From contig NZ_JACJOF010000036.1 in assembly GCF_014695395.1 (NCBI RefSeq), forward strand, positions 1-64,000: DNA of 64,000 nt, given 5' to 3'. The notes beneath the pieces are model-generated. The model was not told the DNA's origin. It did not search any database and saw only the letters and a program-made list of their open reading frames with translations. Origin of the DNA: Nodosilinea sp. FACHB-131 (lineage in GTDB: Bacteria > Cyanobacteriota > Cyanobacteriia > Phormidesmidales > Phormidesmidaceae). Shown here one piece after another: positions 3,012 to 46,201 of the stretch (positions are counted from its first letter, which is position 1; every line of letters starts with the position of its first letter). A program made the translations under genes and the position numbers.

Positions 3012-3411
3012 TCGCGGCGACATTCGCCTGATTCAGGAGGCCCTCAAGAGCACCGCTGCCCCGTGCGAGATTGTGATCGCCCGGGACGGCATGGAGGCGA
3101 TGGCCTACCTGCACCGCCAGGGGGAGTTTGCGGCGGCCACTACCCCTGATCTGATTTTGCTCGATCTCAACCTGCCTAAAAAAGACGGGCGGGAGGTGCT
3201 GGCCGATATTAAAGCCAGCGACGCCCTCAAGCACATTCCGATTATTGTGCTGACCACCTCACGGAACGAGGAGGACATTTGCAAGAGTTACGACCTGCAC
3301 GTCAACTGCTACATCTCAAAATCGCGCAACTTGACCCAGCTGTTCAAAATTGTGCAAGGAATTGAGGCATTTTGGCTAGAAACAGCGACGCTACCCTCGA
3401 GTACCCCTTGA
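2965..3411 (+). CDS. rcp1: Rcp1-like response regulator, phytochrome partner
   Basis: A single receiver domain of 148 residues with no output domain. The acidic pocket is FLVEDN, the phospho-acceptor is the first Asp of LLDLNLPKKDG, and the conserved Thr and Lys lie in VLTTS and YISKS. The C-terminal FKIVQGIEAFW is typical of Rcp1, the phosphotransfer partner of Cph1. The ATG at 2965 gives the family start (MATDARPKTIFLVEDN); a longer frame upstream is only a shadow of the phytochrome gene. It overlaps the phytochrome gene by 47 nt, which implies translational coupling. Confidence 0.93.
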   Translation: MATDARPKTIFLVEDNRGDIRLIQEALKSTAAPCEIVIARDGMEAMAYLHRQGEFAAATTPDLILLDLNLPKKDGREVLADIKASDALKHIPIIVLTTSRNEEDICKSYDLHVNCYISKSRNLTQLFKIVQGIEAFWLETATLPSSTP

Positions 3412-5429
3412 ACCCGGCGGCGGTGCGAGTCCTGCTGATTGAGGATGATCTGGCCGAGGCCCGGTTCTTGCAGGAGGTGCTGAAGGGGTCACCCCGCAGT
3501 CGCTTTCAGCTCAGCCACGCCAAGCGTCTGGGGGAAGCGCTTGCCTGGCTGGGGCAAGATGACTTTGATGTGGCCCTGCTCGACCTCACTCTGCCCGACA
3601 GCAGCGGCCTCGACTCGCTGGATGTGCTGCTTCAAGAAGCCCCGAGCCTGCCGGTGGTAGTGCTGACCAACACCAACGATGACGCTCTGGCGGTGGCGGC
3701 CGTGCGCCACGGTGCCCAAGACTACCTGATGAAGCGATCGCTCCAGCAGGAGGTGCTGGTGCGATCGCTGTTCTATGCGATCGAGCGGCAGCGGGCTGAA
3801 GCCGCCCTGCGCCACGCCAACGAGATTTTGGAAGACCGCGTGCAGGCCCGCACCGCCGAGCTAGAGGCAGCTAACCGGCACCTGCGTCAGGAGATCGAGC
3901 AGCGCCAGCGCATTCAAGAACGCCTCACCCTGGCTCAAAATGCCGCCAGCATTGGCACCTTTGAGTGGTGCGTCAATGCTTCCGATCGGCCCTCCGACCC
4001 ATCCCATTCCCCATCGAACCCGGCAGCAGATTTACCCTGGCCCATAGCCGATATGATGGCCAGCTTTAGCGACAACTGGCCCTGGCCGATTCATCCCGAC
4101 GACGACGAGCGGGTCAGCCAGGAGCTGAGGCGATCGCTTCAACAGGGGCAGGGACTCAAGACCGAGTTTCGCATTTTGGTCGGCGATCGGGTGCACTGGC
4201 TGACGATTAACAGCAGCCTAATCTGCGATGTGGAGACCCACAGCGAACGCCTGCTAGGCATTCATATGGACATCACCGACAAAAAACAGCTAGAGGCCCA
4301 GTTCCTGCGATCGCAGCGGCTCGAAAGTCTGGGGACCTTGGCCGGTGGCATCGCCCACGACCTCAACAATATTCTGACGCCGATTTTGCTGGTGGTGCAG
4401 CTTTTGCCGCTGAAGTTGGAGAAGATCGATCCCTGGATTCAGAGCAAGCTGGACATCCTAGAGGGCAGTACCCAGCGGGGCGCCGACCTGGTCAAGCAAA
4501 TTCTCGCCTTCACCCGTGGGGTTGAGGGCAAGCGCTTTGCCCTTCAGGTTCACCATCTGCTGGCTGATATTCGCAAACTAGTACAGCAAACCCTGCCCAG
4601 ATCCATCGATGTCCATACCGACGTGCCAGACAATCTGTGGCCGGTTTGGGGTGACCCTACCCAGTTGCACCAAGTATTTATGAACCTTTGCGTCAACGCC
4701 CGCGACGCGATGCCAGCCGGCGGCACCCTGCACATTACCGCTGAGAACCTGACCTTAGACCATGACTCAGCCCAGCGGCATTTCCAGGCCCAGCCCGGCC
4801 TCTATGTCAGGGCTACCTTTGCCGATACCGGCACCGGCATGGGGCCAGCGGTGCTGAATCAAATTTTTGACCCATTTTTTACCACCAAAGCCCCAGGTCA
4901 GGGCACGGGGCTGGGGTTATCGGCGGTGCTGGGCATTGTCGATAGCCACGGTGGCTTTATTGACGTGCAGAGCCAGGTGGGCCAGGGCAGCCAGTTTCAG
5001 GTCTATCTGCCGGCCACCTTCGAACCCAGTCCTGCCGCCGTCACCCTCCCCAACCTGCTCGATGGTGGCCAGGCAACAGTGCTGGTAGTAGACGACGAAC
5101 CCGCTGTTTGTGCAGCGGTGCGCACGGTTCTAGAACTGCACAATTATCGGGTGATGGTAGCCGACGGCGGGCAGGCCGCGATCGCCCTGCTGGGCGAGCA
5201 CGTGAGTACCATTCACACCGTACTGATGGACCTAATGATGCCGACGATGGATGGTTTCGCCACAATTCCACTGCTGAAGCGCATCAACCCAGACCTACGG
5301 GTGGTTGCCATGAGCGGCCTCAACTCCGTCGATGCCGTCGCCAAAGCCGAGCAACAGGGGTTCCAAGGCTTCTTGCCGAAACCCTTCACCCGCCAAGACT
5401 TGCTCCAGCATATGCAGCCCCTAGACTGA
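3372..5429 (+). CDS. Hybrid histidine kinase: REC-PAS-HisKA-HATPase-REC
   Basis: A soluble hybrid kinase with no membrane segment. An N-terminal receiver (about 15-130; IEDD, LLDLTLPDSSG) is followed by a coiled coil (about 140-190), a PAS fold (about 190-310; WPIHPDDDERV), HisKA with AGGIAHDLNNILTP, HATPase (NLCVNARDAMPAGG, FADTGTGM, GTGLGLS) and a second receiver (VVDDEP, MDLMMPTMDG). The start is unusual: TTG at 3372, preceded by GAGG, overlaps rcp1 by 40 nt. Alternatives are TTG at 3408, which would overlap the rcp1 stop as TTGA, and GTG at 3423. It is the third gene of the phytochrome operon, so Rcp1 or the phytochrome may feed phosphoryl groups into its first receiver (inference). Confidence 0.88.
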   Translation: MARNSDATLEYPLNPAAVRVLLIEDDLAEARFLQEVLKGSPRSRFQLSHAKRLGEALAWLGQDDFDVALLDLTLPDSSGLDSLDVLLQEAPSLPVVVLTNTNDDALAVAAVRHGAQDYLMKRSLQQEVLVRSLFYAIERQRAEAALRHANEILEDRVQARTAELEAANRHLRQEIEQRQRIQERLTLAQNAASIGTFEWCVNASDRPSDPSHSPSNPAADLPWPIADMMASFSDNWPWPIHPDDDERVSQELRRSLQQGQGLKTEFRILVGDRVHWLTINSSLICDVETHSERLLGIHMDITDKKQLEAQFLRSQRLESLGTLAGGIAHDLNNILTPILLVVQLLPLKLEKIDPWIQSKLDILEGSTQRGADLVKQILAFTRGVEGKRFALQVHHLLADIRKLVQQTLPRSIDVHTDVPDNLWPVWGDPTQLHQVFMNLCVNARDAMPAGGTLHITAENLTLDHDSAQRHFQAQPGLYVRATFADTGTGMGPAVLNQIFDPFFTTKAPGQGTGLGLSAVLGIVDSHGGFIDVQSQVGQGSQFQVYLPATFEPSPAAVTLPNLLDGGQATVLVVDDEPAVCAAVRTVLELHNYRVMVADGGQAAIALLGEHVSTIHTVLMDLMMPTMDGFATIPLLKRINPDLRVVAMSGLNSVDAVAKAEQQGFQGFLPKPFTRQDLLQHMQPLD

Positions 5430-5436
5430 CAAGCGG

Positions 5437-8358
5437 CTAAAAAGAACCTGCCAGAGCCTCAACGCAGCGATCGCAGATCGTCGGATCCTCGCTACTCTCG
5501 CCCACATGGGTAGAGTAATTCCAGCAGCGATCGCACTTCTCACCCTCGGCATCCACTACACCAATACCCAGCGCGTCGGATTCGCTACTGCACTTAACGC
5601 CAGCTAGGGCGTCAGGAGTATCCAACACCTCCACTTGAGAAACCAAGAACAGGTAGCGCAGTTCGTCCACGTGGTTAGAGTCGGGAGCGACTGCATCCGC
5701 AGGATTCATCGCTGCCAGCTTCGCCCGCAGTTCGGGATCGGCCACATACAGCAGCGCCTTGGCCTCCAGCGAAGAGCCAATATCCTTAGCGGTGCGGGCT
5801 CGCTCTAGCACCCGGTTCACGTCCTGGCGCACGGTGCGAATCTGGCTCCAGGTTTCAGCTAACTCCGGCTGCTGCCACTGGTCGTCTAGCTGCACCCAAC
5901 CCGCTTGAAACACCGATTTGTGGGCGGTGGAGTAGGGCAGGTTTTGCCAAATGTCTTCGGCCATGTGGGAGAGCACTGGGGCAATGGAGCGGGCTAGGTT
6001 TTCGATCGCGATCGCCAGCACCGTCTGACAGCTGCGCCGCCGGAACGAATCGGCCGCACTGATGTACAGCCTATCCTTGGCGGCATCCAGGTAAAAATTC
6101 GACAGATCGACTGCACAGAAATTCTGCACGGTTTGGAAAAACCGGAAGAACTGGTAGGTCTCGAAGGCGTCGGTGATGTCGGTGAACACCTCGGTCATGC
6201 GGTGCAGCATGTAGCGATCGAGCTCGGGCAGCTGGTTGTAGGGCACCGCGTCTTTTGCCGGGTCGAAGTCGTGCAGGTTGCCCAGCAAAAACCGCGCCGT
6301 GTTGCGAATCTTGCGGTATACATCCGACATTTGCTTGAGGATGTTGCCCCCCAGGGGCACGTCAGAAGAATAGTCCACCGACGACACCCACAGGCGCAGC
6401 ACGTCGGCCCCATAGGGCGGGTCCTGCTTCTGGTTTTTGCCGCCGTTGATCACAATTGCCGGATCTACCACGTTGCCGATGGATTTACTCATCTTGCGGC
6501 CCTGCTCGTCGAGGGCAAAGCCGTGGGTGAGCACCGTTCTGTAGGGGGCGCAGCCATTCACCGCCACGCTGGTCAGCAGGCTCGACTGGAACCAGCCTCG
6601 ATGCTGGTCAGAACCCTCCAGGTACATATCCACTGGGTACTCTAGCTCGCCGCGCTGCTGAGCCACCGCCGCCCAGGAAGAGCCCGAGTCGAACCACACA
6701 TCCATGGTGTCGGTGCCCTTGCGGTAGGTGTGGCCGTTGTTGCGGTACTGTTCTGGCAAGAGTTCCGCCTCGGTTAGCTCCCACCAGGCGTCGGAGCCTT
6801 TTTCGGCAAAGAGCGCTTTGATGTGGGCCAGGGTTGTTTCGTTGAGCAGGGGTTCGCCCGTGGCTTCGTCGTAGAACACAGGGATCGGCATACCCCAGGT
6901 GCGCTGGCGCGAGATGCACCAGTCGGAGCGATCGCCCACCATCGCCGTAATCCGGTTTTCACCCGTGGCCGGAATCCACTGCACCGACTTGATTGCCTTT
7001 AGCGCCTCGTCGCGGAAGCCCTCGACGGAGGCAAACCACTGTTCGGTGGCGCGGTAGATGGTGGGCTGCTTGGTGCGCCAGTCGTAGGGGTACTTGTGAA
7101 CGTAGGGCTCATGCTTGAGCAGAGAACCCGCCTTTTGTAGGGCCTCAATCACTGCCGGGTTGGCGTTGGTGAGCACGTTGAGCCCAGCAAAGGGACCGGC
7201 CGCCTCGGTCATGTCGCCCTTTTCATCCACGGGGCAGAGCAAGGGCAGACCGTAGCGCTGGCCCACTTTAAAGTCTTCGTCGCCGTGGTCAGGAGCGGTA
7301 TGCACCAGGCCAGTACCCGACTCGGTGGTGACATAGTCGCCGCCGATCAGAATGGGGCTGGTGCGATCAAACAGCGGATGGCGGTAGGTGGAATACTCTA
7401 GGGCTGCACCCTTGATTTCGGCCTTGAGGGTAAGTTCAGAGCCGAGCACCTGGGCCATGCGATCGCACAGATCCTTGGCGATGATCAGGTACTTAAACGG
7501 CGTCCCAGACGCCACCTCGACTACGGCGTAGGTCAGTTCCCCGTTCACCGCCACCCCCAAGTTGGCCGGAATTGTCCAGGGGGTGGTCGTCCAGATCGCC
7601 ACGCCCAGCTCACCCAGGTAGGGCTCTAGCGCCGCCTTTGCGTCGGGCGACGCGCTCACCATGGGAAATGCCGCGTAGATGCTGGGGGAGGTGTGGCCTT
7701 CGGGATATTCCAGCTCGGCCTCTGCCAGGGCTGTCTGAGAGGTGGGGCTCCAGTGGACAGACTTGAGGCCGCGATAGATGTAGCCTTTCAGGTACATCTG
7801 CCCAAACACTTCAATCTGAGCCGCTTCGTACTTGGGCAGCAGCGTCATGTAGGGGTGATCCCAGTCACCCCAAATACCGTAGCGCTTGAAGCTCTCCCGT
7901 TGGCGATCGATCGCTTTAAGGGCAAAGGCCTTCGCCTTGTAGCGCAGCTTGATCGGCGTTAGATTGGCCCGCGCTTCCGGGTCCATCGCTTGGAGCACCT
8001 TGAGCTCGATCGGTAGGCCGTGGCAGTCCCAGCCAGGCACGTAGCGCACCTTGCGGCCCTTGAGCAGCTGGTATTTGTTAATTGTGTCTTTGAGAATTTT
8101 GTTGAGGGCGTGGCCAATGTGCAGGTCGCCGTTAGCGTAGGGCGGCCCGTCGTGCAGCACAAAAATCTCGCCGGGGTTGCTGGTCGACAGAGTTTCGTAG
8201 ATTTGGTTTTCGGCCCAAAACGCTTGAATCTCAGGCTCGCGCTGGGTGGCGTTGGCCCGCATGTCAAAACTGGTCTGGGGGAGAAGAACGGTCTCTTTGT
8301 AGCTTTTAGGGTCTGTCACAGCCGGAGGTTGACTAAGGGTGAAGGATGCTCGCGCCAT
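5437..8358 (-). CDS. ileS: Isoleucyl-tRNA synthetase
   Basis: Class I synthetase charging tRNA-Ile, 973 residues, normal for bacterial IleS. The HIGH signature is in GPPYANGDLHIGHAL near residue 80, the KMSKS loop is KMSKSIGNVVDP, and the editing domain has TTPWTIPANLGVAV. The C-terminal zinc knuckle CDRCWNYSTHVGE...CDRC is complete. The usual family start lies near SYKETVLLPQTSFDMRANA, so the true start may be the in-frame GTG about 13 codons downstream rather than the ATG used here. It converges on the hybrid kinase gene with only 7 nt between stops. Confidence 0.97.
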   Translation of the reverse strand: MARASFTLSQPPAVTDPKSYKETVLLPQTSFDMRANATQREPEIQAFWAENQIYETLSTSNPGEIFVLHDGPPYANGDLHIGHALNKILKDTINKYQLLKGRKVRYVPGWDCHGLPIELKVLQAMDPEARANLTPIKLRYKAKAFALKAIDRQRESFKRYGIWGDWDHPYMTLLPKYEAAQIEVFGQMYLKGYIYRGLKSVHWSPTSQTALAEAELEYPEGHTSPSIYAAFPMVSASPDAKAALEPYLGELGVAIWTTTPWTIPANLGVAVNGELTYAVVEVASGTPFKYLIIAKDLCDRMAQVLGSELTLKAEIKGAALEYSTYRHPLFDRTSPILIGGDYVTTESGTGLVHTAPDHGDEDFKVGQRYGLPLLCPVDEKGDMTEAAGPFAGLNVLTNANPAVIEALQKAGSLLKHEPYVHKYPYDWRTKQPTIYRATEQWFASVEGFRDEALKAIKSVQWIPATGENRITAMVGDRSDWCISRQRTWGMPIPVFYDEATGEPLLNETTLAHIKALFAEKGSDAWWELTEAELLPEQYRNNGHTYRKGTDTMDVWFDSGSSWAAVAQQRGELEYPVDMYLEGSDQHRGWFQSSLLTSVAVNGCAPYRTVLTHGFALDEQGRKMSKSIGNVVDPAIVINGGKNQKQDPPYGADVLRLWVSSVDYSSDVPLGGNILKQMSDVYRKIRNTARFLLGNLHDFDPAKDAVPYNQLPELDRYMLHRMTEVFTDITDAFETYQFFRFFQTVQNFCAVDLSNFYLDAAKDRLYISAADSFRRRSCQTVLAIAIENLARSIAPVLSHMAEDIWQNLPYSTAHKSVFQAGWVQLDDQWQQPELAETWSQIRTVRQDVNRVLERARTAKDIGSSLEAKALLYVADPELRAKLAAMNPADAVAPDSNHVDELRYLFLVSQVEVLDTPDALAGVKCSSESDALGIGVVDAEGEKCDRCWNYSTHVGESSEDPTICDRCVEALAGSF

Positions 8359-8482
8359 TATGGCAGATTCGGCCCCCCTAACAATTGCTAAGGGCTGCCT
8401 CTGGTGAGCTATCTCTATACATTAGGCCAGGTTGAGGGCAATTGTCGGGCTAATCTCGGCGTTCAGTGGCAGGGAGAGCAGC

Positions 8483-9646
8483 CTATAGGTCGCTGGGCCA
8501 ATTTTCCTCTTCCTCGGCTTCGGGAATGCCAGAATCTTCGCGGGCCGAGGGGTATGGGCTGGTCGCTTTAGCGGCATCGGGTTCTGGAATGGCTGAACTG
8601 TCGTGGTCGGAGCTTGTAGCCTGTGGCACCCCAGGGCCGGAAACCGACGCGGAACGCGTATCCCTACGGGGATTGTCCTCATCAACTCCGTCAAAACTCT
8701 CCGTTGCCTCGGTGTCAACAATAGTCACCGTTGAAGATGGATCTACGCCTGACGTGGCTTTGGCAGTGGAATCGGGGCTAGCGGCAGGGGGACGATTGGG
8801 TTTAGCCAATGGCGAAGGCCGGGGTGGAATTTCGATCACCGCTCGCTTGGGCTTAGGGCTGGTTTTGGCTTTAACAACGTCTCCCACCCAGGCCTTTAAC
8901 CCGGCTAACCTGCCCCCAATCGTAGAGGGCTTCTGCTTTGTCTTGACTTGAGGAGTTTTGGGAGACTTCTGAGAATTCTGGGCGGCTGGTACAGTCTGGG
9001 AGGCACGGGGCTGGGGCGATGGCCCTACCGGGCCGGTCTTTGACCATCGCGCTGCTTTAACCGGTGGCGAAGACGGAGCTTTAACCGGCTCTAAAACAAA
9101 GGGTTCTGGAATGTGGCCCACGCTTTCAGAAGCCATGGTTCCAGGGGATGATGGCCGACGAGGGCCGGGCGCTAGCTCATCGACAAATTCGTAGTCCACA
9201 TCCTTGAGGGACGACGCTCGAATTTCGCTGATGGCGATCGCCGGATCGCCCGGCAGTCTGCCGTCTTCAGCCTCAGGCAGCCAGCGACTGAGGGGAGTGC
9301 CTCGCAGCAGACCGACAGTCCACTGTTTCAGCTGATGTCCAAAGGTCGACCAGGAATCTCGGGTAACGGGCGTCTGCAAGTCTAGCGGCGTGCGCTTACG
9401 GCGCAGACTTAAAGTTTGCCAGCCCAGCCAGCCCAGCAGCACCACGCTGGCCAGATGACCCAGCAGCTCAGTAGGCGAGGTTTGAACGGCACTAAACCAC
9501 AGCACCAGCCCGTAGAATGCCCCCACCCCACTCCAAAAAAAGTCGTGGCGACGGTGCACCTCAGGGAAAAAGAAGGCGGCCCCATATAGCGAGAGGCTGC
9601 CCAACCAAACTGCGATCGCTAGAACATGAACCCCCATGCCGCCCAC
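8483..9646 (-). CDS. Ycf66-like membrane protein with long variable tail
   Basis: The N-terminal ~100 residues contain three hydrophobic segments (about 5-25, 35-55, 60-80) with YGAAFFFPEVHRRHDFFWSG, matching the Ycf66 family of cyanobacteria and plastids, whose function is unknown. The remaining ~290 residues are hydrophilic, rich in Pro, Ser, Lys and Ala, and probably disordered. The tail is long compared with plastid Ycf66. The gene stands alone between ileS and the STAS/sugar-transferase gene. The assignment rests on the N-terminal pattern only. Confidence 0.65.
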   Translation of the reverse strand: MGGMGVHVLAIAVWLGSLSLYGAAFFFPEVHRRHDFFWSGVGAFYGLVLWFSAVQTSPTELLGHLASVVLLGWLGWQTLSLRRKRTPLDLQTPVTRDSWSTFGHQLKQWTVGLLRGTPLSRWLPEAEDGRLPGDPAIAISEIRASSLKDVDYEFVDELAPGPRRPSSPGTMASESVGHIPEPFVLEPVKAPSSPPVKAARWSKTGPVGPSPQPRASQTVPAAQNSQKSPKTPQVKTKQKPSTIGGRLAGLKAWVGDVVKAKTSPKPKRAVIEIPPRPSPLAKPNRPPAASPDSTAKATSGVDPSSTVTIVDTEATESFDGVDEDNPRRDTRSASVSGPGVPQATSSDHDSSAIPEPDAAKATSPYPSAREDSGIPEAEEEENWPSDL

Positions 9647-9774
9647 CGTGCCCGCTACCTCAACACCACTACTCTATCGCGGCTTGCTAGACCAGGTGCG
9701 ACTGTACGGCTTGTCTAAAGTGGACAATCTTTATTCTTCTTGAGAATAAAAATTGCCAGGAGTTTTCCAGCAGA

Positions 9775-9817
9775 TCAACCCATCCACCTGCCTACCCCGT
9801 TCACCTATCCATCCTTC
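9775..9817. repeat. CATCCACC-like degenerate direct repeats
   Basis: Short pyrimidine-rich units related to ATCAACCC, ATCCACC, TTCACC and ATCCATCC follow one another between the Ycf66 gene start and the sugar-transferase stop. The same unit occurs as four perfect copies at 31925-31956. Confidence 0.45.
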
Positions 9818-9828
9818 TCAACGCTGTC

Positions 9829-10884
9829 CTAAGATGCCCCTGCCTTCTTTGAGAACAGCACCAAAACGGTCTTAAGAATTAGCTGAATATCGTAGGCCAG
9901 ACTCCAGTTCTTCTGGTAGTCCAGATCCATCCGAATCACGTCTTCAAACTTTTTCACCGTAGAGCGGCCGTTGACCTGCCACTCGCCGGTCATGCCGGGT
10001 TTGACGTCAAGGCGCTGCCACTCGGGCACCTTGTACTGCTCAATTTCATCGGGAGTAGGCGGACGGGTACCTACTAAGCTCATATCGCCCCGCAGCACGT
10101 TCCAAAACTGAGGCAGTTCGTCGAGGCTAGTGCGGCGCAGAAAGCGGCCCACTTTAGTAATGCGAGGGTCGTTTTCATTCTTAAACAGAGGACCTTCTAC
10201 CTCGTTTTCAACCTGGGCCTTGAGCGCTTCGGCATCGATCACCATGGAGCGAAACTTCCAAATGTGGAAGCGTTTGCCCATCCACGAGCAGCGCACCTGT
10301 TTAAAGAGAATCGGGCCGCCATCTTCGAGCTTAATGGCAATCACAATGGGCACCGACAACACTGCGGTCAGCACCAGACCCACCAGCGCTCCGACAATAT
10401 CCAGCAGGCGCTTGCCCTTCGAGGCCACCGAGGGATGAGTGGTCAGCGCTACAAACCGCATTTCGGGCTTAAGGGCAGGGCTTTCGGGCTCACCGGCAAC
10501 CGGTTCAAAGGTAAACAGCTGCTCTAGGTCGGTTAGAGCTAGCACCATGCGTACCTGCTCTTGCACCCCCCGCAGCACCATGGCAATGCCCTTGGCGTGA
10601 CAGGTGCGATAGCAGATCACTAGGGCCCCCAAGCCACTGCTATCAATAAACTGAGTCTGGCTTAGATCAATAATGATAGTTTCAGGGGTTGGTTGGCTCA
10701 GGCAGTGCTGCTTTACCTGTTGCTCAAACTCGACCGCCTCAACAACGGTCAAAGTAGACGGCACGCTAACAACCCGAGCGGTGTCTATCGCCTCATTAGA
10801 GAGCTGCTCTGCGACTACTTGTGGATCCTGATCTGGGGCAATGGATGAGGTCATACCGGCATCCCTGGTAATGGTTAATGGCAA
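9829..10884 (-). CDS. STAS domain fused to bacterial sugar transferase
   Basis: A 351-residue protein. Residues about 35-130 form a STAS (anti-sigma-factor antagonist) domain with IIIDLSQTQFIDSSGLGALV, where DSSG is the phosphorylatable Ser site. Residues about 155-350 form a bacterial sugar transferase: one membrane helix (IVGALVGLVLTAVLSVPIVI), then KFRSM, RRTSLDELPQFWNVL, GDMSLVGTRPP and KPGMTGEWQVNGRS. The latter family moves a sugar-1-phosphate onto undecaprenyl phosphate to start exopolysaccharide or O-antigen repeats. Related enzymes usually carry extra N-terminal membrane helices; here STAS replaces them, suggesting control by a partner-switching kinase/phosphatase (inference). No other polysaccharide gene adjoins it. 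Confidence 0.9.
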   Translation of the reverse strand: MPLTITRDAGMTSSIAPDQDPQVVAEQLSNEAIDTARVVSVPSTLTVVEAVEFEQQVKQHCLSQPTPETIIIDLSQTQFIDSSGLGALVICYRTCHAKGIAMVLRGVQEQVRMVLALTDLEQLFTFEPVAGEPESPALKPEMRFVALTTHPSVASKGKRLLDIVGALVGLVLTAVLSVPIVIAIKLEDGGPILFKQVRCSWMGKRFHIWKFRSMVIDAEALKAQVENEVEGPLFKNENDPRITKVGRFLRRTSLDELPQFWNVLRGDMSLVGTRPPTPDEIEQYKVPEWQRLDVKPGMTGEWQVNGRSTVKKFEDVIRMDLDYQKNWSLAYDIQLILKTVLVLFSKKAGAS

Positions 10885-11019
10885 TAGGTACTGTCAGAAT
10901 TCCCTTGACAATGTCCAAACTATAGGAGGCGCAGTCTGGGGTTGCCTTGACCACGCCTCCATCTTCAACGAGTCTTAACGAGTCGTTGATGAGTTGATTA
11001 GGAGCACCTGCGTATTTCT

Positions 11020-11047
11020 ACCCTTGACGGACACAGAGCGTCAGGGT
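11020..11047 (-). terminator. Stem-loop after acnA
   Basis: ACCCTTGACG (11020-11029) pairs with CGTCAGGGT (11039-11047) with a single bulged base and a 9-nt loop, 12 nt past the acnA stop. No clear U-run follows, so it may be an mRNA 3' stabiliser rather than a full intrinsic terminator. Confidence 0.4.
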
Positions 11048-11058
11048 TCCAAAGCGCT

Positions 11059-13752
<2,694 letters not shown>

Positions 13753-13780
13753 AGGGCTTGGGCGCTCCGATCGCGACGGG

Positions 13781-13798
13781 GATCTATCTACCTAGATC
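13781..13798. promoter_or_regulatory. Palindrome upstream of acnA
   Basis: GATCTA (13781-13786) and TAGATC (13793-13798) form a perfect 6+6 dyad with a 6-bp centre, 28 nt before the acnA start codon. The size fits a dimeric regulator site or a 5'-leader hairpin. An AT-rich -10-like stretch lies just further upstream on the acnA strand. Confidence 0.35.
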
Positions 13799-13902
13799 AT
13801 AGATAGCGTTGCGATTTTATTACATTGCTTGTACCGCTGCGCTGTAGGCTTTGTTGCCAATCATTCCCTAAACCCAAGGATTGCTTAAGGATTGCCCAGA
13901 GC

Positions 13903-14868
13903 TTAGCGGCTGGGACCTTTAGAAAATAGCTTGCCAAACAGCGATCGCTTGGGGCTGTCTGACGGCTTGCTGTCCGGCTGCTTGGGCTTGTCCTGGGTTG
14001 GTGTAGCGGCAGGGCGAGGTGGGGGATCGCTCAGAGATAGGTTGAGCTGCCGAGCATACTTCAGGGCCACAGCGTTGTTGGGGTTGAGGCGCAGCGCCTG
14101 CTTGAAGTGCACCTTGGCCATGCCGGGCAGCTTTTGCAGCAGATAGGCCTGGCCCATGAGGCAGTGGTAGCTGCTGTTTTGAGGGTCGATCTTCAGGGCA
14201 TCCTTGAGTTCTTGAATAGCAGCCTGAACGTTTTTGCCTTTCAGATACTCCTGGGCTCGGCCATAGTGGCGATCGGCGTAGGCCTGCCCGGACGACTTGC
14301 CGTTGTTAGCAAGGTGGTCGGCTGGAGAATCAGAGGCGATGGTGGTGGCGGATACGAGCCCGCTGCGCTTTTCGCGAATCACCGGTGCACCCATTTTGCG
14401 GCGCAGATACACCAGGTTGAGTTCGCTGAGCTGCTGAGTGCAAGTTTCGAACTCAGCTAGAGACTCGTACTGGCGATCGCACAGCTGATCGACCGCCTGC
14501 TCGTAGAACACATCTACCTCGGCCTCAGCGACATCTAGCAGATATTTGCCAGGTTTGCTGGTGGGCTGGAGCTGCTGATCGCGGCTGAGGCGGCGCACTT
14601 TGAATCGGAGGGCCGCCAGCACCTCGTTGCGGCCTTTATCTTGCTTGAGGCGCTGGTAGGCGGGGTTGACTAGCTTGGGCAACACCTGGTCGGCCAGCTG
14701 GCGCAGCTCGGCCGGCACATCGACCAACGCGTCGGGGTGCAGCTGTTTGGCCACTACTCGATAGCGCTTGAGAATGCGCCGCTCATCGGCTACTACTGAC
14801 ACACCCAGTAGCGCGTAGGGATCGGTGAAACGGTTGAGCCATTCAGGGGAGAAGGCAGAGTGGGGCAT
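13903..14868 (-). CDS. J-domain protein with C-terminal TPR repeats
   Basis: A 321-residue protein. The N-terminal ~75 residues form a J domain (DPYALLGVSVVADERRILKRY then KQLHPDAL, with the essential HPD), implying co-chaperone work with a DnaK. Residues about 205-275 contain two tetratricopeptide repeats (AQEYLKGKNVQAAIQELKDA, YLLQKLPGMAKVHFKQALRL). The tail is Pro/Lys/Ser rich and probably disordered. There is no Gly/Phe or zinc region, so it is a class C J-protein, probably specialised by its TPRs. It is monocistronic. The client is unknown. Confidence 0.85.
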   Translation of the reverse strand: MPHSAFSPEWLNRFTDPYALLGVSVVADERRILKRYRVVAKQLHPDALVDVPAELRQLADQVLPKLVNPAYQRLKQDKGRNEVLAALRFKVRRLSRDQQLQPTSKPGKYLLDVAEAEVDVFYEQAVDQLCDRQYESLAEFETCTQQLSELNLVYLRRKMGAPVIREKRSGLVSATTIASDSPADHLANNGKSSGQAYADRHYGRAQEYLKGKNVQAAIQELKDALKIDPQNSSYHCLMGQAYLLQKLPGMAKVHFKQALRLNPNNAVALKYARQLNLSLSDPPPRPAATPTQDKPKQPDSKPSDSPKRSLFGKLFSKGPSR

Positions 14869-15032
14869 TCAGGGGCAGAACTAGGGGAGATTATTTTATT
14901 GTTGCGGAAGTCGTGAGAACGGCATACCAGAATCTGGAGGGCTATGTCGATTCTTTATGCCCGTCTTATACTGAATTCACAAGATAATTCAAAGCTTTAG
15001 CCTCTACAGGCTTTATACAAAAGCGAAGGGCA

Positions 15033-15416
15033 ATGATGTTGGCAGAGCGTTCCCGTCGAACAGCCGTCATTCTAGCGTGGTTAGGGGTTTTGACTCCTTT
15101 GACGGGTCTGCATAAATTTTATTTGGGCCAACCCTTTTGGGGAGCTGTTTATATTGTGCTGGGGTTGGTCATCCCAATTCCTAAAGTGGCCTGTGCCATT
15201 GAAGGGGTCATGTTGCTTAGGCAGTCATCTGATGATTTTGACCAGCGCTGGAGCAAGACCAATAAGGTCGCTCCTGCTACCGCTACTCTTGATCCAGCTC
15301 AGATTAGCGCCCTTGGGGTTGCTCTGCGGGAGCTAGACACCCTGCGTCAGGAGGGGCTGATTTCGGAGCTGGAGTTTGAGCAGAAGCGACGTCAGCTTTT
15401 AGATCAAGTGGCCTAG
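15033..15416 (+). CDS. TM2-SHOCT small membrane protein
   Basis: 127 residues. The N-terminal half has two hydrophobic helices around a tight turn with GLHKFYLGQPFWGAVYIVLG, the TM2 signature. The last ~30 residues (LRELDTLRQEGLISELEFEQKRRQLL) match the SHOCT oligomerisation motif. Function is unknown for both families; the combination is common in bacteria. It begins with two ATG codons and is followed after 10 nt by the HhH gene, so the two are probably co-transcribed. Confidence 0.85.
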   Translation: MMLAERSRRTAVILAWLGVLTPLTGLHKFYLGQPFWGAVYIVLGLVIPIPKVACAIEGVMLLRQSSDDFDQRWSKTNKVAPATATLDPAQISALGVALRELDTLRQEGLISELEFEQKRRQLLDQVA

Positions 15417-15426
15417 GGATGCGACA

Positions 15427-15954
15427 GTGCTAAAACGTTGGCAAGGCTTGAGGGCACAGTTACATCCCCTGGCGGCTCGCTTGAGCCAACCGAGCTATCG
15501 GCTCCAGTCTTACCAGGAGGTTGAGGCGGCAGCCAAGTTGGGATTTGCCCTGGATGTGAACCGGGCGACGGTCGATGACTGGCTCCGGTTGCCGGGGCTA
15601 TCGATTCGCCAGGCCCAGGGGTTGGTGCGCCTGCGCCAGGCTGGGGTGCAGTTTCACTGCCTAGAGGATTTGGCGGCGGCATTGGGCACGGCCCCGGCCC
15701 AGCTGACTCCCCTGGCTGCCGTGCTGTCGTTTTGCTACTACGAGGAGCACTGCGGTACTTTGCCCACGGTAAGCCTCAACCAGGCTACGGTCTCGTGCCT
15801 GGTTCGTCTGCCGGGAGTGCCTGCGGCCTTAGCTGAGGCCATTGTGTGGGAGCGATCGCACCGTGGCCCTTACCAAGATTTAGCCGATCTACAAAATCGC
15901 CTGGGGCTCCCCCCCGATTTGGTGCAGAGCCTAATGTATTATCTACGGCCCTAA
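15427..15954 (+). CDS. ComEA-like helix-hairpin-helix protein
   Basis: 175 residues starting at GTG 15427. It has two helix-hairpin-helix pairs: FALDVNRATVDDWLRLPGLS around residues 40-60 and VSLNQATVSCLVRLPGVP near 120-140, followed by the second half (GPYQDLADLQNRLGLPPDLV). This is the non-specific DNA-binding fold of ComEA. No signal peptide or transmembrane anchor is evident, unlike true ComEA, so a role in DNA uptake is not assured. It lies 10 nt after the TM2-SHOCT gene. Confidence 0.75.
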   Translation: MLKRWQGLRAQLHPLAARLSQPSYRLQSYQEVEAAAKLGFALDVNRATVDDWLRLPGLSIRQAQGLVRLRQAGVQFHCLEDLAAALGTAPAQLTPLAAVLSFCYYEEHCGTLPTVSLNQATVSCLVRLPGVPAALAEAIVWERSHRGPYQDLADLQNRLGLPPDLVQSLMYYLRP

Positions 15955-15964
15955 CTGTAGGGCC
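15947..15964 (+). terminator. Stem-loop at end of the HhH gene
   Basis: GGCCCT (15947-15952) pairs with AGGGCC (15959-15964) around a 6-nt loop and overlaps the stop codon. The sequence after it is AT-rich but lacks a clean U-run. Confidence 0.4.
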
Positions 15965-16306
15965 TAATAAACTTTGAAATAGCTGTAGCAATTCTAACAA
16001 AACTAGTGTTTTAACTCGATTTTGTGGAGCTGTCTAAGCCGCGATCGCACCTGTCATTGGGTTGATTTTGTAGGGTGAATAGTTTCTTAGAAGACCAGAA
16101 ACAAAACTATAAATCGCGATCGCTGCTTAGCCTTAACCGCTTACACAGTCAGACTGGTAGCCTCGCTTATCTACCCTAATCAAAATTTAATTTTGAGGAA
16201 GTATTGTCTAGGCAATAGAAAATGCTCTAGAACGTTAACTTAGGACCGAAAACCCTGTTTTTAATTCTATTAAAGATAGCGAGTACTTTTTGCTGGAATT
16301 AACACC
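15965..16306. other. Phosphoketolase upstream region
   Basis: There is no gene in this AT-richer leader. It contains two GCGATCGC sites and a perfect AT-rich palindrome at 16180-16196 (8+1+8 bp). No consensus promoter could be placed with confidence. Confidence 0.5.
16180..16196. promoter_or_regulatory. AT-rich palindrome upstream of phosphoketolase
   Basis: TCAAAATT and AATTTTGA flank a single central T, a perfect 17-bp dyad 110 nt before the phosphoketolase ATG. It could be a regulator-binding site; no known regulator consensus is claimed. Confidence 0.35.
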
Positions 16307-45445: not shown

Positions 45446-46201
45446 TCAGCTGTCAGTGCCGCCAGATGGTGCTGACAGATTTACTACTACCACTGTGATG
45501 TTGTCGCGGCCCCCCCGCTGCTTGGCAGAATTGACTAGGGCTGTGGCCGCTGCCTCGCAGGCGCGAATCGACTTCAGGTGAGAGGCGATGAGGTGGTCTG
45601 ACAATTCTTCGGTGAGACCATCGCTGCACAGCAGTAGGCGATCGCCACTGTGCACCTCAATGGGCTGAATATCAATTTCGGTGAGGTCATCGCGCCCTAG
45701 GCACTGAGACAGCACATGGCGCCATGGGTGGCTGCGCGACTGGGCTGAACTCACTTCACCCGCTCGAATAGCTTTGGCAATCCAGGTGTGGTCTTCGGTC
45801 AGCTGCTCTAGGTGGTGGCCCCGCAGGCGGTAGAGACGAGAGTCGCCCACGTGGGCACACCAAGGCTGCGGGTCGCTGTCGCGAAAGGTGAGCACCACCA
45901 CAGTAGTACCCATGTCGGCCCGTTCAGGGTGGCGCCTTTGGTCGTCAAGAATGGCATTATTGGCTTGACGTAGAGCTTGCTCTAAGAGCTGAGCCGTGGC
46001 TACTTCCCCGTGCCAGTTCTGCTGCAAAAAGGTCTTAATAGCGGCGGTGGCCAAGCGGCTAGCTTCCTGCCCACCCGCATGGCCGCCCATGCCGTCTGCC
46101 ACGAGGAAAAATCGTCCCTCAGGGTCGATGTAGTAATCATCCTGGTTGCTAGTGCGCAGCAGACCTGGATCCGATAACCCTGAAAAAACGCAATCCACCA
46201 T
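45446..46201 (-). CDS. PP2C-family protein phosphatase
   Basis: 251 residues. PPM metal-site motifs: [58 protein letters not shown] and [11 protein letters not shown]. It is a stand-alone catalytic domain like cyanobacterial PphA, which dephosphorylates Ser/Thr proteins such as PII. It is downstream of an AarF-like kinase gene (20 nt gap), so the two are likely co-transcribed. Confidence 0.93.

Follow-up and report, generated by a model that had tools for sequence, protein, structure and literature searches.

Can the enzyme that starts a polysaccharide chain be switched directly by a serine kinase and a phosphatase, through a STAS domain of its own? The question is raised by a gene of Nodosilinea sp. 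FACHB-131 lying in the window, by which we mean the whole stretch of 64,000 nucleotides analysed here (contig NZ_JACJOF010000036.1). An earlier note, made from the letters alone, had read it as an anti-sigma-antagonist STAS domain in place of the usual N-terminal membrane part of an initiating sugar transferase, and had put polysaccharide initiation under a partner-switching kinase and PP2C phosphatase acting in trans. To our knowledge, the post-transcriptional control of cyanobacterial exopolysaccharide (blooms, biofilms, sheaths, heterocyst envelope) is poorly known.

The STAS-PGT protein and its conservation

The window ORF joins a STAS domain of the RsbV/SpoIIAA type to a monotopic phosphoglycosyl transferase (PGT). 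Its parts and its neighbours are the following.

9829..10854, minus strand: STAS-PGT gene from its probable ATG start, 341 aa (the mechanical ORF opens at the TTG, 10884)
10501..10794, minus strand: STAS domain, RsbV/SpoIIAA type, residues 31-128 (Pfam, fold match)
10633..10644, minus strand: DSSG motif, residues 81-84 (alignment of 96 fusions)
10408..10437, minus strand: linker motif HPSV.S..KR, residues 150-159 (H150, S155, K158 and R159 invariant in 96/96)
9853..10413, minus strand: Bac_transf monotopic phosphoglycosyl transferase domain, residues 158-344 (Pfam, Foldseek; Asp255-Glu256 dyad invariant in 96/96 by alignment)
11059-13752: aconitase-like ORF upstream of the STAS-PGT gene (product named by reading the sequence)
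8483-9646: large ORF downstream of the STAS-PGT gene

Both halves of the earlier domain reading were recovered by Pfam. The STAS match exceeded its cut-off with an E-value of 2.4e-17, and the Bac_transf match (PF02397) reached an E-value of 4.7e-67 and 225.4 bits (cut-off 27); STAS thus precedes the transferase domain where the usual membrane N-terminus would stand. The N-terminal part also matched TIGR00377 (56.9 bits, cut-off 53.45), while the score for TIGR03025, the EPS initiating transferases, fell just under the cut-off (289.5 versus 295.55 bits), as expected because the N-terminal part is replaced. The phospho-site motif is intact, as the note had claimed; judged by this motif, S82 is presumably the counterpart of the SpoIIAA/RsbV phospho-serine, and the Asp-Glu pair at 255-256 we take to be the catalytic dyad of the PGT.

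The AlphaFold2 model, built on a 38-row alignment, had a pLDDT of 88.6 and a pTM of 0.81, its least confident regions being the linker (model residues 108-111) and the C-terminus. In Foldseek searches its PGT part matched PglC and WbaP, and its N-terminal part matched TM1442 first and then SpoIIAA chains from SpoIIAB complexes, with SulP and stressosome STAS domains placed lower. The structure prediction, which the note had named as a check on the N-terminus, therefore gave a STAS fold. These matches also bear on the reading of the domain as a ligand sensor for a nucleotide or an acyl-carrier protein, a role suggested for certain STAS domains elsewhere. SpoIIAA itself binds nucleotide, and the ACP-bound YchM STAS (3ny7) is among the weaker Foldseek matches; since the top matches are kinase-partner STAS proteins and a sensor would leave the kinase linkage described below unexplained, we regard this reading as very improbable.

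Counted from the TTG, the ORF at 9829-10884 (minus strand) of the window's ORF list has 351 aa. When the window protein and five close relatives were aligned, the TTG region contained indels, and the block running from CAGGGATG over the ATG at 10854 was collinear in 6/6 sequences. The ATG is favoured for this reason and, on this sequence comparison, is probably the true start. The closest named relatives, from a search with 172 residues, are those of a Nodosilinea strain (98%) and a Leptolyngbya strain (97%).

The search for the same domain pair across cyanobacteria that the note had proposed covered 386 sampled genomes. At E<=1e-30 a match was found in 196 of them, many to the PGT part only. 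Among the matches listed, at least 96 STAS-PGT copies, the window copy included, reach into the STAS domain, in at least 86/386 genomes, and weaker fusions may be missing from these counts. Such numbers rule out a one-off or a sequencing artefact. Overall similarity, not the DSSG motif, was the criterion by which the 96 sequences were picked; a further 80 named loci were excluded from the motif-conservation counts because one of the two patterns used to scan for them contained DSSG.

Within residues 31-128 only T77, D81 and S82 are invariant in 96/96, and S83 and G84 are kept in 95/96 and 94/96, respectively. Most of the STAS domain is less well conserved than the linker motif. The domains, the predicted fold, the invariant serine and the invariant PGT dyad are direct observations. 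The STAS could serve constitutively in structure or dimerisation, replacing the N-terminal part of WbaP/WcaJ-type enzymes, with its serine kept for the fold and not for a phospho-switch. TIGR03025 aligns over the STAS/linker region from residue 70, as if STAS replaced the usual middle domain, and XssP of Synechocystis, discussed below, is functional despite a decayed motif. An invariance confined to T77, D81 and S82 points to function rather than fold, however, and a kinase gene occurs near the fusion and is absent near 19 PGT genes without STAS, so we judge a purely structural role quite unlikely.

The kinase gene beside the fusion

The other 95 fusion loci were retrieved with their flanks, and clustering of their neighbours placed a HATPase_c_2 protein (domain search), present at 37 loci, among the three commonest. 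A profile built from these proteins was used to scan the loci for RsbW-like kinases, the second search suggested by the note. It found the kinase downstream of the fusion, on the same strand and within 0.85 kb, in 37/95 loci. In 17 of these the genes overlap and in 27, overlaps included, they are no more than 30 bp apart, counts that are approximate, as ORF starts are the first mechanical start codons and some contigs end early. The remaining ten downstream kinases are separated from the fusion by 82-848 bp, where a short ORF between is possible. At two further loci the kinase lies on the other strand, downstream in one and 2.5 kb upstream in the other. For 56/95 loci the scan, over up to 9 kb per side, found no family kinase. 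The named loci gave the kinase in 17/80 cases, which include Oscillatoria sp. PCC 10802, Planktothrix sp. PCC 11201, Microcystis, Crocosphaera, Microcoleus and Calothrix sp. PCC 7103.

The idea that the kinase trails PGT genes in general was not borne out, as it was found beside 0/19 control PGTs without STAS (about 5 kb scanned on each side). The difference between fusion and control loci has a Fisher p of 3e-4, to be read with the reservation that related genomes are not independent and that the controls were scanned over about 5 kb per side versus up to 9 kb. A twentieth control locus, L341, was left out of the PGT-only set because its STAS and PGT frames are offset and the kinase comes next, which makes it a split family member. 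The offset frames (L341:4701-5786, genome G175), with the kinase behind, may reflect a natural split or a frameshift introduced in assembly.

Kinases were also counted genome-wide with the profile of alignment A1 at E<=1e-15, those not adjacent to a fusion included. The family is present in 119/386 genomes: 83/86 with a listed fusion versus 36/300 others, raw counts that ignore kinship and genome size. One of the 36 is G175 with its split member. Three genomes (G014, G076, G093) contain the fusion and no family kinase at this threshold; the serine is still kept there, and two loci of this group, L120 and L122, read DSSA. A kinase outside this family could serve these genomes, or their switch could be in decay. 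Linkage and co-occurrence of the kinase in relatives are, like the anatomy of the fusion, observed directly, and the case for anatomy and linkage is strong. The kinase linkage is new here, the STAS plus glycosyltransferase pair being already in print for all4160. In the accessible parts of the open-access literature, the fusion architecture was found in one review sentence only (PMC8256260), and no report was seen that describes its control by phosphorylation or its linkage to a kinase gene.

Alignment A1 comprises 33 of 42 listed kinase matches (those left out are mostly near-duplicates, and one is a weak match), and E50, T53, N54, A59, H60, G88, G115 and N136 are invariant in 33/33. We take E50 and N54 to lie in the GHKL N-box, and G88 and G115 in ATP-binding motifs. 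The C-terminal N136 is followed by Cys-Leu (C137, L138) in at least 90% of the sequences. The kinase model (pLDDT 91.4) has SpoIIAB and RsbW as its best PDB matches.

A SpoIIE-type PP2C, recognised by similarity to the two such proteins of the window genome, lies near the fusion in 7/39 kinase-bearing loci and in 0/56 others (7/95 in all). Two loci gather most of the components. L075 holds all the following genes within a single stretch, and L319 belongs to Calothrix sp. PCC 7103.

L075, 6181-6603, minus strand: kinase
L075, 6862-8016, plus strand: response-regulator-PP2C
L075, 8013-8336, minus strand: STAS protein
L075, 8595-9074, plus strand: short glycosyltransferase-like ORF (by reading the sequence)
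L075, 9141-10142, plus strand: STAS-PGT
L319, 4941-5939: STAS-PGT
L319, 5939-6409: kinase
L319, 6448-6843: STAS protein
L319, 8226-9332, minus strand: response-regulator-SpoIIE protein, past a transposase-like ORF

Free STAS proteins of this kind suggest another arrangement, in which the STAS-PGT serves to anchor the kinase at the membrane or to act as a sink for it. How much kinase is free for a standalone STAS or for a sigma factor would then depend on the phosphorylation state of the STAS-PGT, whose own PGT reaction would go unregulated. A free STAS protein lies near the fusion in 10/95 loci (7/39 with the kinase, 3/56 without), so that one kinase could serve two STAS clients, and the SpoIIAB-sigma factor complex is among the top fold matches of the kinase. 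Against this, 32/39 kinase-bearing loci showed no free STAS gene within the stretch retrieved, and no sigma-factor gene was recognised among the 40 neighbour clusters listed, from reading of sequence starts. We consider a kinase sink unlikely.

Candidate partners in Nodosilinea and the proposed switch

Reading of the ORFs at 5000-16000 revealed no kinase or polysaccharide gene beside the window STAS-PGT, in agreement with the earlier note. Its remark that the regulator would act in trans also fits the window genome, in which two family kinases (E<=1e-15) lie on contigs C34 and C26, unlinked to the fusion. A STAS/response-regulator-PP2C pair is present on contig C43; SpoIIE-type PP2C is thus available and likewise unlinked.

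L153:6555-6989, minus strand: kinase of contig C34
L152:7273-7737, minus strand: kinase of contig C26

In the kinase tree both proteins fall outside the PGT-adjacent groups and share a supported clade (98/94) with the L075 kinase. The clade has 41 rows, 11 of them C26-type, and most of its kinases are not beside a fusion, although that of L075 belongs to it. Among its 30 kinases that are not C26-type (L075 and L211 included), a PP2C is near 24/30 and a STAS protein near 21/30; the C34 kinase has neither nearby. The C26 kinase gene stands behind petB- and petD-like ORFs and 61 bp ahead of a GT4 glycosyltransferase gene (L152:5977-7212, minus strand; the pet names are by reading). This layout recurs, with a petB-like ORF in 11/11 and a GT4-like ORF in 8/11 C26-type cases, again named by reading.

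A C26-type kinase is present in 38/48 fusion genomes without an adjacent kinase versus 7/38 with one (Fisher p 2e-8, L075 scored as non-adjacent). The C26-type kinase could serve as trans partner where none is adjacent, and shared ancestry can explain the pattern too, because most carriers belong to one family (f7); nine genomes have this kinase without a listed fusion. The best candidates for trans partners in Nodosilinea are the C34 kinase with the C43 STAS and response-regulator-PP2C, ranked first because of L075, and the C26 kinase second.

Two other ORFs of the window deserve mention. A PP2C-like ORF at 45446-46201 (minus strand; 251 aa, beside an ABC1-type-kinase-like ORF by reading) was rejected as the partner phosphatase: its SpoIIE match is weak (33 bits), it lies about 35 kb away and it reads as PrpC/PphA-type. 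A 685-aa ORF at 3372-5429 (plus strand) reads as a hybrid two-component protein with receiver, histidine kinase and receiver.

We consider it probable that partner switching controls the initiation of polysaccharide synthesis at the post-translational level, the STAS output being part of the enzyme itself. The STAS-PGT would be a priming enzyme that transfers sugar-1-phosphate from a UDP-sugar to undecaprenyl phosphate, and its STAS domain would be both substrate and docking site for an RsbW/SpoIIAB-like GHKL serine kinase and a SpoIIE-type PP2C. The phosphorylation state of S82, together with kinase binding to the unphosphorylated form, would decide whether the PGT works, the fused output replacing action on a sigma factor. 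In the window genome the kinase and phosphatase partners would act in trans. We infer phosphorylation, the trans kinase and the polarity, as we do the mechanism itself, and by analogy with SypA and HmpV we lean towards phosphorylation turning the enzyme off. The kinase and PP2C control claimed in the earlier note is thus supported in part: the kinase lies downstream, and the PP2C sometimes nearby, in homologous loci, and phosphorylation with its effect on activity stays inferred.

Several observations count against such a switch: no family kinase is near 56/95 loci or near the window STAS-PGT in the stretches scanned, 3/86 fusion genomes have no family kinase at E<=1e-15, XssP works with DSAA, the kinase family occurs in 36 genomes without a listed fusion, and the two kinases of the window genome stand outside the PGT-adjacent groups of the tree. 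The fusion, with a kinase gene behind it in many relatives, suggests a direct switch at the first step of slime production. With less assurance, we are inclined to the wider statement that these proteins are widespread cyanobacterial self-contained switch enzymes, pairing a fused STAS output with a neighbouring serine kinase and sometimes a response-regulator-PP2C, through which environmental signals could gate the initiation of slime, sheath or heterocyst envelope without transcription. A kinase gene adjoining that of the initiating enzyme, with overlap in 17/95 loci, makes the switch directly testable.

Comparison with known systems

SpoIIAA-SpoIIAB and RsbV-RsbW resemble the present pair in the predicted fold of both partners and in the phospho-serine motif. 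Their output is a sigma factor, whereas the window STAS is a covalent part of a biosynthetic enzyme. With the monotopic PGTs PglC and WbaP the window protein has the catalytic domain in common; WbaP carries an N-terminal region of its own where the window protein has STAS, and PglC has neither. In Pseudomonas SiaABCD, SiaC is under phospho-control. Its output is also an enzyme, as SiaC activates the diguanylate cyclase SiaD (PMC8457831, in the parts available), but the enzyme is a different one and there is no fusion.

Vibrio fischeri has SypA, a STAS protein whose conserved serine is phosphorylated by the kinase/phosphatase SypE and which controls polysaccharide-dependent biofilm, the unphosphorylated form being active (accessible parts of PMC8256260, PMC4517449). 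In Nostoc punctiforme, HmpU/HmpV/HmpW form a partner-switching set with the STAS protein HmpV as output on an undefined effector (PMC6495340, PMC8256260, as far as accessible). According to the available text of PMC10581220, hmpU and hmpW have consecutive locus numbers and hmpV is located apart from them. The usual set here differs, with a PP2C near 24/30 and a STAS protein near 21/30 clade kinases. SypA and HmpV are standalone STAS proteins, whereas the window STAS is fused to the chain-initiating enzyme. Their direct targets are described as unknown in the accessible parts of PMC8256260, PMC6495340 and PMC10120452; if the proposed switch is real, a natural fusion of STAS with an initiating transferase hints at what such standalone outputs act on in polysaccharide control and suggests where their targets should be sought.

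A characterised relative is XssP (sll5057) of Synechocystis sp. PCC 6803, encoded on plasmid pSYSM (L321:13992-14945; STAS by Pfam, E 1.7e-9). It combines STAS and Bac_transf in the same order and is 51% identical to the window protein over query residues 35-350, homology thus extending across both domains. XssP lies in the synechan cluster, unlike the window gene, near which no polysaccharide gene was recognised, and its motif is DSAA instead of DSSG. In the parts of PMC8205485 available it is the priming glycosyltransferase of synechan, and in the xssP disruptant blooms no longer formed and EPS accumulation was suppressed; its transcription is described there as being under XssS/R/Q. The main texts of three synechan papers, PMC8205485 and PMC13125312 among them, do not use the term 'STAS'. 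The profile scan found no family kinase on the 28.9-kb pSYSM stretch around XssP, and the cluster moved into S. elongatus yielded sulfated polysaccharide with altered sugar ratios (PMC13125312, accessible part). The DSAA motif and the activity of the cluster in S. elongatus indicate that activity there does not depend on a dedicated kinase or on the switch.

In Anabaena sp. PCC 7120, all4160 is described as a glycosyltransferase that has STAS at its N-terminus (PMC8256260), an architecture likened here to that of the window protein by description only. It lies outside the HEP island, is among the genes on which heterocyst envelope polysaccharide synthesis depends, and is lower in sigC and sigE mutants (PMC4390870); the accessible parts of these two papers mention no kinase or phospho-site for it. 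Because XssP and all4160, with the same architecture, serve polysaccharides, the window protein likely starts a polysaccharide as well. Seen beside these systems, the fusion is a real, conserved and under-noticed variant of partner switching.
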